From the NCBI RefSeq assembly GCF_900446695.1, contig NZ_UAVP01000007.1, positions 372,001 to 436,000 of the forward strand: a stretch of 64,000 nucleotides of DNA. Reading direction: 5' to 3'. The translations under genes were made by a program, and so were the position numbers. Shown here one piece after another: positions 54,803 through 63,206 of the stretch. Numbering within the stretch: position 1 is the stretch's first letter; every line of letters begins with the position of its first letter. This stretch comes from Capnocytophaga sputigena. GTDB lineage: Bacteria > Bacteroidota > Bacteroidia > Flavobacteriales > Flavobacteriaceae. The notes beneath the pieces were generated by a model. That model did not search any database. It was not told the origin of the DNA and saw only the letters and a list, made by a program, of their open reading frames with translations.

Positions 54803-55072
54803 TTATTTTCTGATGTTTAGCTCTTTGATAATCGCACGGTATCTCTCGATATCGTTATTTTTCAAATAATCGAGCAAACTTCTGCGTTTACCTACCAATT
54901 TCACCAATGAACGCTCGGTATTGAAATCTTTGCGATTTACTTTCAAGTGTTCTGTAAGGTGATTGATTCTAAGGGTAAAAAGAGCGATTTGCCCTTCTGC
55001 TGAACCAGTGTTGGTTTCTGAACCTGCGTACTTTTTAAAAATTTCCGCTTTTACTTCTTTAGTTAAATACAT
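54803..55072 (-). CDS. rpsO: 30S ribosomal protein S15
   Basis: The 89-aa protein matches S15: KKYAGSETNTGSAEGQIALFTLRINHLTEHLK and LVKLVGKRRSLLDYLKNNDIERYRAIIKELNIRK. It binds 16S rRNA early in small-subunit assembly. It has its own promoter at 55119-55148 and a terminator after it. Confidence 0.97.
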   Translation of the reverse strand: MYLTKEVKAEIFKKYAGSETNTGSAEGQIALFTLRINHLTEHLKVNRKDFNTERSLVKLVGKRRSLLDYLKNNDIERYRAIIKELNIRK

Positions 55073-55118
55073 TCCAATATTAATTTAATGATTATTATGT
55101 ACGAATTTTTTCGGGCGC

Positions 55119-55149
55119 AAAGGTAGTAAAATTTTTCTAACTACCAAAG
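55119..55149 (-). promoter_or_regulatory. Promoter of rpsO
   Basis: On the minus strand TTTG (55149-55146), 19 nt and TACCTTTG (55126-55119), followed by CGCCCG. The leader would be about 40 nt. Confidence 0.6.
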
Positions 55150-58303: not shown

Positions 58304-58312
58304 ATAAATAAT

Positions 58313-58370
58313 TACGAAATACGAAATACGAATGAGGAAAAATGAATTACGAAATACGAAATACGAATGA
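58313..58370. repeat. Short tandem repeats of the ACGAAATACGAA type
   Basis: ACGAAATACGAAATACGAATGA occurs twice (starting at 58313 and 58347), separated by GGAAAAATGAATT. The reverse complement (TCATTCGTATTTCGT) is of the same kind as the CGTCATTCGTCATT run at the lpxK start (19653-19677). Confidence 0.7.
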
Positions 58371-58408: not shown

Positions 58409-58438
58409 TTTGTAATTTAGAATTAATTCATACTTTTG
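58409..58438 (+). promoter_or_regulatory. Promoter of the structured-RNA candidate
   Basis: TTTG (58409-58412), 18 nt and TACTTTTG (58431-58438), followed by CACC. Transcription should start near 58445. No coding frame of note follows for 275 nt. Confidence 0.65.
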
Positions 58439-58444
58439 CACCAA

Positions 58445-58670
58445 ATAAAAACAATTGAGATATAGAAGAATAGAAAAATACGCATAAGATTTAAAGAGAA
58501 AGTTGTTAATATTCCTTTTAAAAAGAATCTGGTAAATTCAATAGAAACAGAGGTGAATTAACAAATGGTTTCTCGCCCCATAAGGGCGTGAACTGTTTTT
58601 GTTACATACCTGTTTCGGGCATACCAGAGCCTTTTTAAAGTGTGAACAAAACATTCACGCTTTTTTTATG
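58445..58670 (+). ncRNA. Candidate structured non-coding RNA or leader
   Basis: A transcript of about 225 nt is delimited by a promoter and an intrinsic terminator. Outer helix: TTAAAAAG (58518-58525) with CTTTTTAA (58631-58638); a 3 x 3 internal loop; second helix CTGGTA (58529-58534) with TACCAG (58622-58627). Inside lie hairpin A, AATTCA (58535-58540) with TGAATT (58554-58559), and hairpin B, about 17 bp with small bulges, CGCCC-cataa-GGGCG at its tip (58560-58603). The unpaired stretch 58604-58621 joins hairpin B to the outer helix. I recognise no known family. It may be a small RNA (a 6S-type RNA should be tested) or a leader of the lipoprotein gene at 58723. Confidence 0.5.
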
Positions 58671-58671
58671 C
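58642..58671 (+). terminator. Intrinsic terminator of the structured-RNA candidate
   Basis: GTGTGAA and TTCACGC pair (one G-U) across CAAAACA, and TTTTTTT follows. It lies upstream of, not after, the next gene, so either a free RNA ends here or expression of that gene is attenuated. Confidence 0.75.
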
Positions 58672-58722
58672 TCAAAGGTTGCCCTTATTCGTTTTGTAAT
58701 ATTAAAATTAAATCAATAACAA

Positions 58723-59082
58723 ATGAGAAAAATTGTTTTATTCAGTGCTTTGGCACTACTGTTAGTGAGTTGTGGTGTAACAAGAGAGTTATCACACAAT
58801 GTAAACAACCATACTACTCAAGTGGTTTTGGCTAAAAATAACTTTAAAGTAGTAGAACACGTGAAGGGAGAAGCTTCTAATCAATATTTTCTATTGATTA
58901 TAGGAGGCGGAAAACGTGCTTTGGTGGAAAAAGCAAGAGCTAAAATGCTTCAAAATGCTAATTTGGTAGGCTCTTCAAGAGCAGTTATCAATGAAACTAT
59001 TGAGTCACATTGGATTTTTATAGGAGTAGGCATCCAATATACGGTAACTGTTTCAGCAGACGTAATTGAGTTTACTGAGTAG
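58723..59082 (+). CDS. Small DUF6567-like lipoprotein
   Basis: The 119-aa product has the lipoprotein signal LFSALALLLVSCGVTREL and a mature part with LAKNNFKVVEHVKGEASNQYFLLIIGGGKRALVEKARAKML and NLVGSSRAVINETIESHWIFIGVGIQYTVTVSADVIEF, a pattern common in Bacteroidetes (DUF6567-like, by memory). It should sit in the envelope. Expression may depend on the leader/terminator before it. The stop is followed by a bidirectional terminator. Confidence 0.75.
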   Translation: MRKIVLFSALALLLVSCGVTRELSHNVNNHTTQVVLAKNNFKVVEHVKGEASNQYFLLIIGGGKRALVEKARAKMLQNANLVGSSRAVINETIESHWIFIGVGIQYTVTVSADVIEFTE

Positions 59083-62480: not shown

Positions 62481-63206
62481 TTATATATTTTCTATTTTCT
62501 CAATGAGATAGCGATGTATCCATTCAGGAATAACATCTTGCAAAATCTTCATTTCAGTTCCTTTTTTCTCTATTAAGAGAGAACGTTTATCTGAAAAAGT
62601 TGTATCGAAAATAAAAGCTCTATCGGCTATCATAAAAGCTTCGAACAATAATTCCATTGATCTATAATAACGCTCTATTACTTTCTTTTCTAACACATTA
62701 TGACCTCCTTTAGTTACTCTTAGCCCAATGCGTTCTATATTGATTTTTGGATCGCGTGTGCTTACAAAGTACAGATATGTTTTAAAACCTTGCTTTTTTA
62801 CATTCTTTAAAAACTCAACTTTTGAAGGGTGTGACATTACTGTTTCAAACGAAAAAGTACTTTCTGTACACAGTAATATCTGTCTAAAAAAGTTGGCTAT
62901 ACTTGCTGCTATATAGCTATCTATTGGAGTATTTAACACCAAGATATTATCAGTGATAACAATACTTTGGAGTTTTTGCTTATCAATTTGCTTATTTTCA
63001 GCATTTAGTTGAAAACTTTCCCAATCATATTGTGTGATAGGGGTAGGTACATACTCCTCACAGTTGATAAACCCCTGTGTTTTTAGTTGCTTTTCAATAA
63101 TATCAGCATTTACAAAATAACCTACGTTATAATGTTTTTTTACATCTTCTATAAGAGTGGACTTTCCCGAACCATTAGGTCCTGCAAACATACGAAAGCG
63201 TTTCAT
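62481..63206 (-). CDS. Zeta toxin-like kinase
   Basis: The 241-aa P-loop protein has Walker A GPNGSGKST (9-17), NADIIEKQL (where zeta kinases bind sugar nucleotide), ESTFSFET (115-122), and GLRVTKGGHNVLEKKVIERYYRS (161-183), which carries the Arg residues of the lid. This is the layout of zeta/PezT-like proteins, which phosphorylate UDP-GlcNAc. It lies in a cell-wall gene run, its start overlapping a 74-aa gene as ATGA. It is shorter than classical zeta (287 aa) and close to uncharacterised chromosomal relatives, so toxicity is not assured. Confidence 0.75.
   Translation of the reverse strand: MKRFRMFAGPNGSGKSTLIEDVKKHYNVGYFVNADIIEKQLKTQGFINCEEYVPTPITQYDWESFQLNAENKQIDKQKLQSIVITDNILVLNTPIDSYIAASIANFFRQILLCTESTFSFETVMSHPSKVEFLKNVKKQGFKTYLYFVSTRDPKINIERIGLRVTKGGHNVLEKKVIERYYRSMELLFEAFMIADRAFIFDTTFSDKRSLLIEKKGTEMKILQDVIPEWIHRYLIEKIENI

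Follow-up and report, generated by a model that had tools for sequence, protein, structure and literature searches.

What does the transcription unit between the promoter at position 58409 and the run of Ts ending at position 58667 of this Capnocytophaga sputigena DNA (the window, i.e. the whole stretch of 64,000 nucleotides that was analysed) encode, and does its RNA act on the gene that follows it? An earlier note, made from the letters alone, had described a Bacteroidetes promoter, about 225 nt without a coding frame and an intrinsic terminator with seven Ts, had called the unit an orphan and had named a 6S-type RNA, an unknown small RNA and a leader of the next gene as the options. The promoter, the ends of the transcript and the following gene are located as follows.

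58409..58412, plus strand: TTTG, the -33 box of a Bacteroidota promoter
58431..58438, plus strand: TACTTTTG, the -7 box, 18 nt after TTTG
58445..58499, plus strand: 5' extension of the transcript, aligned in genomes G000, G017 and G014 and longer than in most copies
58661..58667, plus strand: U-run of seven Ts, seen in the sequence
58723..59082, plus strand: DUF6567 family gene (PF20205), a lipoprotein by its signal sequence (by eye) and the presumed regulated gene

Both boxes of the proposed promoter are in place, and they would put the transcription start near 58445. A promoter of the Bacteroidota type lies outside the coverage of a sigma-70 promoter scan, which addresses another promoter type. 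Just 5' of the promoter, at 58310-58370, an AT-rich unit of 26 nt (aattacgaaatacgaaatacgaatga) could be seen by eye to occur twice in direct orientation. The lack of a coding frame also holds, as no frame of at least 40 amino acids was found wholly inside 58440-58670, and a frame with a TTG start (58599-58835) runs across the 3' end of the RNA stretch. The fold of 58440-58680 has a z-score of -4.61, with none of 200 shuffled sequences being equally stable. The terminator of the earlier note corresponds to a terminator-like stem (58637-58663) and the T run at 58661-58667; a terminator pattern scan of the window found two patterns against 1.6 expected, i.e. within chance, and the significance derives from conservation and not from the pattern scan alone.

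The orphan label could not be maintained upon searching for relatives. Blastn against 100 genomes recovered two near copies (L003 and L004) and weak partial matches; among the latter, three divergent Capnocytophaga copies at other loci (L008, L009 and L025) were recognised by eye, and the other nine weak loci listed revealed no family features on such inspection. Of the models subsequently used, R1 was trained on Capnocytophaga copies including that of the window and held 21 pairs only; it scored the near-palindromic rod on both strands and gave way to R2, a hand-drawn rod based on four copies of other genera that had themselves first been found with R1, and to R3, which is based on 36 copies including the window copy and excludes L133, a locus with matches on both strands. 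The sole match of R2 in the 64-kb window at E <=10 is 58500-58667 (29.6 bits, E 8.6e-5; E 0.004 in the whole-genome search), and 15 of the 20 Capnocytophaga genomes have an R2 match at E <=0.1, all E-values of these models being rough. Using R3 at the similarly rough E <=0.001, 142 matches were found, spread over 78 of the 397 family-level genomes; a phylum-level sample of 395 genomes, which overlaps with the former, has matches in 69, and 22 of these 69 belong to the same family, 7 to the same order, 18 to the same class and 22 share the phylum only. The window copy scores 74.9 bits on the plus strand vs 21.3 on the minus strand, and it is one of six copies in this genome. Two matches are on plasmids, of Chryseobacterium shandongense and Rhizosphaericola mali, and in both cases the next gene is a CDS annotated on the same strand; the phages searched with the leader model gave no match. 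In L063, L065, L107 and L111, a second copy of the RNA, or at least of its 5' part, directly follows the first, forming tandem leaders. The leader family recurs many times across the Bacteroidota and is apparently new to the literature; a search of published papers, with preprints outside its scope, returned nothing on point for the leader RNA.

The fold shared by the copies is a single rod, which is composed of five helices.

58517..58524 with 58633..58639, plus strand: P1, seen in aligned copies with covariation
58528..58534 (UCUGGUA) with 58622..58628 (UACCAGA), plus strand: P2, 7 bp, with covariation
58544..58550 with 58610..58616, plus strand: P3, variable in sequence with the pairing kept
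58558..58563 with 58600..58606, plus strand: P4, part of the rod
58571..58577 with 58585..58591, plus strand: P5, tip of the rod

The window copy has the entire P1-P5 rod, and its P2 is flanked by two conserved internal loops, which are A-rich on their 5' sides and of GGC type on their 3' sides. Both outer helices of the earlier note (8 and 6 bp) thus exist, with P2 being of 7 rather than 6 bp, and the 6-bp and roughly 17-bp hairpins that it had drawn inside them are instead one continuous rod, P3-P4-P5. In relatives, the P2 pair of the window is replaced by UCUCCAA/UUGGAGA, UCCGCCA/UGGCGGA and others. In an alignment of 93 matches, which was fitted to the structure and of which one is a minus-strand echo of L008, two-sided changes are present in 35 of 38 pairs, and 95.0% of the cells are paired vs 72.1% in shuffles and 30-41% with slid partners. 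An unfitted MAFFT alignment of six Capnocytophaga copies, of a kind that puts P3-P4 in the wrong register, still has two-sided changes in 12 of 31 predicted pairs. Covariation in relatives, the test that the earlier note itself had proposed, is hence positive by either alignment. The paired columns have 204 G-U cells vs 48 A-C cells, and it is therefore the plus strand that appears to be selected as RNA.

The rod is only one of the folds that the RNA may adopt. Pairings that were absent from the earlier note, of a 5' strand with b and of b' with a tail before the U-run, involve the following segments.

58500..58518, plus strand: strand a, the 5' leader strand, pairing with b in the alternative fold (a:b -8.5 kcal/mol in the window copy)
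58551..58577, plus strand: strand b, containing the 5' strands of P4 and P5
58585..58606, plus strand: strand b', the switch strand and 3' strand of P5-P4, pairing with b in the rod and with the tail in the terminator
58637..58662, plus strand: tail, the alternative partner of b' (b':tail -18.8 kcal/mol in the window copy)
58637..58663, plus strand: local terminator-like hairpin that the tail of the window copy can also form

We compared each strand's own partner with partners swapped among 92 copies, which are the loci returned by the searches and not all matches, and from which the minus-strand echo of L008 in alignment A11 was excluded. For b':tail, the own partner outperforms the median of the swaps in 80 of 92 copies (in 81 when the tail length is fixed), and for a:b it does so in 87; the same test gives 63 for the rod pair b:b' and 31, 34, 47 and 49 for four unproposed control pairs. 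The b':tail energies are -17.2 with the own, -12.8 with the swapped and -8.2 with a shuffled partner. A basal helix between a and the tail, also tried, found no support, with the own partner being better in only 51 of 92. Thinning of near-identical copies (n = 33) leaves 32 for b':tail and all 33 for a:b, the controls reaching 13, 17 and 21. The thinned Capnocytophaga copies (n = 14) contribute 14 and 14, with controls of 4, 7 and 7, and the thinned copies of other genera (n = 19) contribute 16 and 19, with controls of 8, 13 and 15. In these 19 copies the b':tail count hardly exceeds that of the b:tail control (15), and the energy gain is 3.2 vs 0.7 kcal/mol.

A run of at least five Us starts 12-45 nt after P1 in 84 of 92 copies, with 19.0 expected from shuffles and 14 in a control stretch; this controlled count supersedes that of a looser criterion (at least four Us within 90 nt), which had given 90 of 92. 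In the window copy, too, b' is complementary to the tail and U7 follows. Conservation shows that the RNA has two mutually exclusive sets of predicted pairings, one of which is terminator-like in its make-up. Upon forcing each fold, the rod comes out ahead in stability in 70 of the 92 copies, with a median difference of 4.8 kcal/mol, and the alternative fold of the window copy is 13 kcal/mol less stable than its rod. The tail of the window copy folds on itself with -8.4 kcal/mol, the seventh strongest of 92. Pairing of the tail with sequence past the U-run is weak as a general feature (59 of 90 vs 49 of 90 in the control) and was not retained as such. A subclass comprising L137, L138, L167, L169 and L171 shows strong pairing of this kind with the sequence just past the U-run; three of the frames that follow are alike (by eye), and the switch logic of this subclass may differ.

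The position of the copies in their genomes bears on whether they act in cis. Taking the next frame as the nearest downstream frame of at least 80 amino acids with an ATG start, by a crude frame calling, it shares the strand of the RNA in 87 of 92 copies, lies on the opposite strand in four (L170, L154, L008 and L009) and is absent in one. The 87 same-strand frames include 34 with a TonB plug, eight with sigma-70 region 2, five with collagen repeats and four with BspA-type repeats, with single members matching EcoRI methylase and N6_Mtase and two matching NucS_C. SusC, ECF-sigma/dead-Cas12f and lipoproteins are the kinds of downstream gene that we observe, a diversity beyond what an ordinary metabolite riboswitch would serve. 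On the upstream side, 24 of the 44 divergent frames lying no more than 200 nt away match HTH_3. In this genome, each of the six copies is followed by a frame on its own strand; those on C1, C10 and C11 precede lipoprotein-like frames (by eye), and the copies at C7:496126 and C7:5432 likewise precede same-strand frames. A role confined to the DUF6567 lipoprotein gene was rejected, as the genes behind other copies are unrelated. An inspection by eye that preceded the models revealed no copy directly upstream of the DUF6567 homologues in G007, G019 and G006, and R2 later found a weak member (L136) in G007 before the gene that precedes the DUF6567 homologue. Further along the window, at 62481-63206 on the minus strand, lies an AAA/zeta-toxin-like P-loop protein, whose Pfam matches are all sub-threshold.

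The motif TAnnTTTG is present within 130 nt upstream of 73 of 90 copies, with 9.9 expected and three in a downstream control, and the last such motif begins 20-40 nt before the model start in 56 of 90; the full -33/-7 promoter pattern is seen in only 23 of 90. Between the U-run and the gene, the gaps of less than 150 nt (n = 36) never contain TAnnTTTG, against a low expectation of 1.3, and the longer gaps contain it in six of 49 cases; the gap between the U-run and the DUF6567 gene of the window has none.

The foremost alternative is a family of trans-acting sRNAs, in which a stable rod of about 170-225 nt, ending at the U-run, acts on other mRNAs or on a protein and the position of the copies reflects their spread. 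An own promoter and a U-run are what such an sRNA needs, the local terminator-like hairpin of the window copy fits it, and two copies (L008 and L009) lie before a convergent gene. FopS sRNAs of Bacteroides, reportedly paralogous and trans-acting, likewise come as several paralogous RNAs per Bacteroidota genome, a likeness of description only. Rfp18 of Flavobacterium psychrophilum, which PMC9723704 describes as a structured sRNA that is conserved in the genus, is needed for protease expression and affects protease mRNAs, offers a flavobacterial parallel by description and not by sequence. However, a same-strand frame follows 87 of 92 copies, the promoter box is missing from all 36 short gaps with 1.3 expected, and the conserved b':tail pairing would be superfluous for a plain sRNA. 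We consider the trans-acting reading unlikely, though deserving of some weight, and of the options named in the earlier note it is the leader of the next gene that the strand bias and the short gaps favour.

On the whole, we think it fairly probable that the window RNA is a cis-acting bistable leader, i.e. a transcription attenuator with its own promoter, and belongs to a phylum-wide multi-copy family. In fold A, the single rod P1-P5 with b paired to b', the switch strand would be sequestered and RNA polymerase would read into the gene. In fold B, two tandem hairpins, a:b and b':tail, would form, the latter with the U-run having the make-up of an intrinsic terminator, and transcription would stop before the gene. 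At the internal loops flanking P2, which are conserved, a ligand, a protein or an RNA acting in trans would perhaps bias the choice of fold. The window copy would regulate the DUF6567 lipoprotein gene, and the switching of this gene by it is the least certain step; the local hairpin of this copy should work in either fold, and constitutive termination is therefore conceivable. Since some tails pair past the U-run, ON and OFF could be reversed in those copies.

The proposed leader resembles terminator-type attenuators and riboswitches in being a 5' leader with its own promoter, in which one strand pairs either upstream or with a tail next to the U-run. It is unlike the known ones in having no Rfam match, in exchanging four strands (a, b, b' and the tail) and in serving, as a family, diverse accessory genes.

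A different role for the same leader position is that of a processive antitermination element. The RNA elements put and EAR are of this kind, and the rod would similarly act on RNA polymerase, allowing it to read through the U-run and later terminators. The placement of the RNA ahead of operons (susCD and sigma-E/dCas12f among them), the diversity of the downstream genes and the U-run at its end would all agree with such a role; but the conserved competing b':tail pairing is more simply explained by an ordinary switch, and we regard antitermination as improbable.

An association of the attenuator candidate with RNA-guided transcription emerges from the loci L102 and L103, where a leader member stands before genes for an ECF sigma factor and for a nuclease-dead Cas12f (dCas12f). 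The proteins encoded at L102 have matches in PDB entries 9n9c (E 1.2e-194) and 9n9q (chain C, E 7.2e-114), which we take to represent the published sigma-E/dCas12f RNA-guided transcription system. Of the 397 family-level genomes, 16 have full-length dCas12f, at 20 loci in total, and five more have shorter matches; all 16 are among the 78 genomes with the leader RNA. Of 16 loci examined (one per genome), 12 have the leader no more than 1.5 kb upstream of dCas12f, and coordinates place it within 2 kb in 16 of the 20. A conserved guide scaffold, mostly ending in ATATACAAC, directly follows dCas12f in 16 of 16 loci. The guide RNA of the sigma-E/dCas12f system is thus a separate RNA encoded right after dCas12f, and this different scaffold led us to reject the leader as the guide RNA. 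In L206, L207, L208 and L211, the guide-RNA scaffold is repeated in a row after dCas12f, with differing guides.

With guide starts picked by patterns that were fitted by eye, the 17 nt after the scaffold match some b' (among 63 copies) with at most four mismatches in 10 of 16 loci; L205 and L208 do so at five mismatches, the guide of L206 is, by eye, similar to b' in a different register, and those of L207, L209 and L210 have no match to the 63 b' strands. Among the same-genome loci in hand, the best place of the guide is b' in 7 of 13 comparisons, with 1-3 mismatches, and the guide-b' match is not perfect. The commonest guide, allowing two mismatches, has 26 places in nine dCas12f genomes, which upon comparing coordinates with the dCas12f and leader matches were judged to be nine guides and 17 b' strands, the latter belonging to 17 of the 20 leader copies listed for these genomes; a reversed guide pattern has two places in ten genomes, and the commonest guide has none in the genome of the window. 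A G, presumably the target-adjacent base of the sigma-E/dCas12f system, is directly 5' of b' in 76 of 92 copies. In dCas12f genomes, the switch strand b' is likely also a target of RNA-guided transcription, as judged by these matches.

The concentration of guide places on b' and the preceding G could also be read as b' being conserved in DNA, as a landing site for sigma-E/dCas12f, with the RNA fold being secondary. Against this, dCas12f was not found in the 20 Capnocytophaga genomes, where the only match is of 57 residues with E 0.12, and, of the 78 family-level genomes that have the RNA, only 16 contain full-length dCas12f; moreover, helices far from b' covary with an excess of G-U that DNA would not give. 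We therefore attach little credence to a mere landing site. The leader family has a much broader distribution than dCas12f, and as dCas12f was not found in these Capnocytophaga genomes, the leader RNA would have to work there without it. Cas12f is without mention in the excerpt of PMC13418256 that was consulted.

The searches of Rfam leave the RNA without a known family, as the earlier note had foreseen in suggesting an unknown small RNA. Rfam release 15 gave four chance-level matches for the window stretch at E 10, each to an RNA family of eukaryotes; for three relatives, 19 matches to assorted families, all below threshold, were obtained at E 10 (best E 0.052), and 16 relatives gave nothing at E 0.1. 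A known Rfam RNA, including 6S and riboswitches, is excluded on the basis of matches at chance level only. A 6S-type RNA, which the long rod with internal loops might recall, can be dismissed for practical purposes, as the 6S models have no match here even at E 10, the similarly rod-like 6S-Flavo (RF01685) has its match at a separate locus of the same genome (G000:C10:224329, 84.7 bits, just below the cut-off of 85), and there are several leader copies per genome. The sole Rfam match in the window at gathering score is an S15-Flavobacteria ribosomal protein leader at 55070-55125 on the minus strand.

A leader member thus precedes most sigma-E/dCas12f operons, other members precede SusC genes, and the guides match b'. 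In the published system, transcription is said to start at a fixed distance downstream of the target. We propose, with confidence evenly divided for and against, that bistable attenuators in front of accessory operons form a network spanning the phylum, and that the sigma-E/dCas12f system arose on top of it. One guide would read the shared b', such that one complex could address many operons per genome, its own included, and transcripts starting downstream of b' would lack b' and hence the b':tail terminator, bypassing the attenuator. If true, this would add a widespread class of regulatory RNA to the Bacteroidota, positioned before SusC and other surface genes, and it would account for the natural choice of target in RNA-guided transcription, viz., an attenuator switch strand that is common to many operons.
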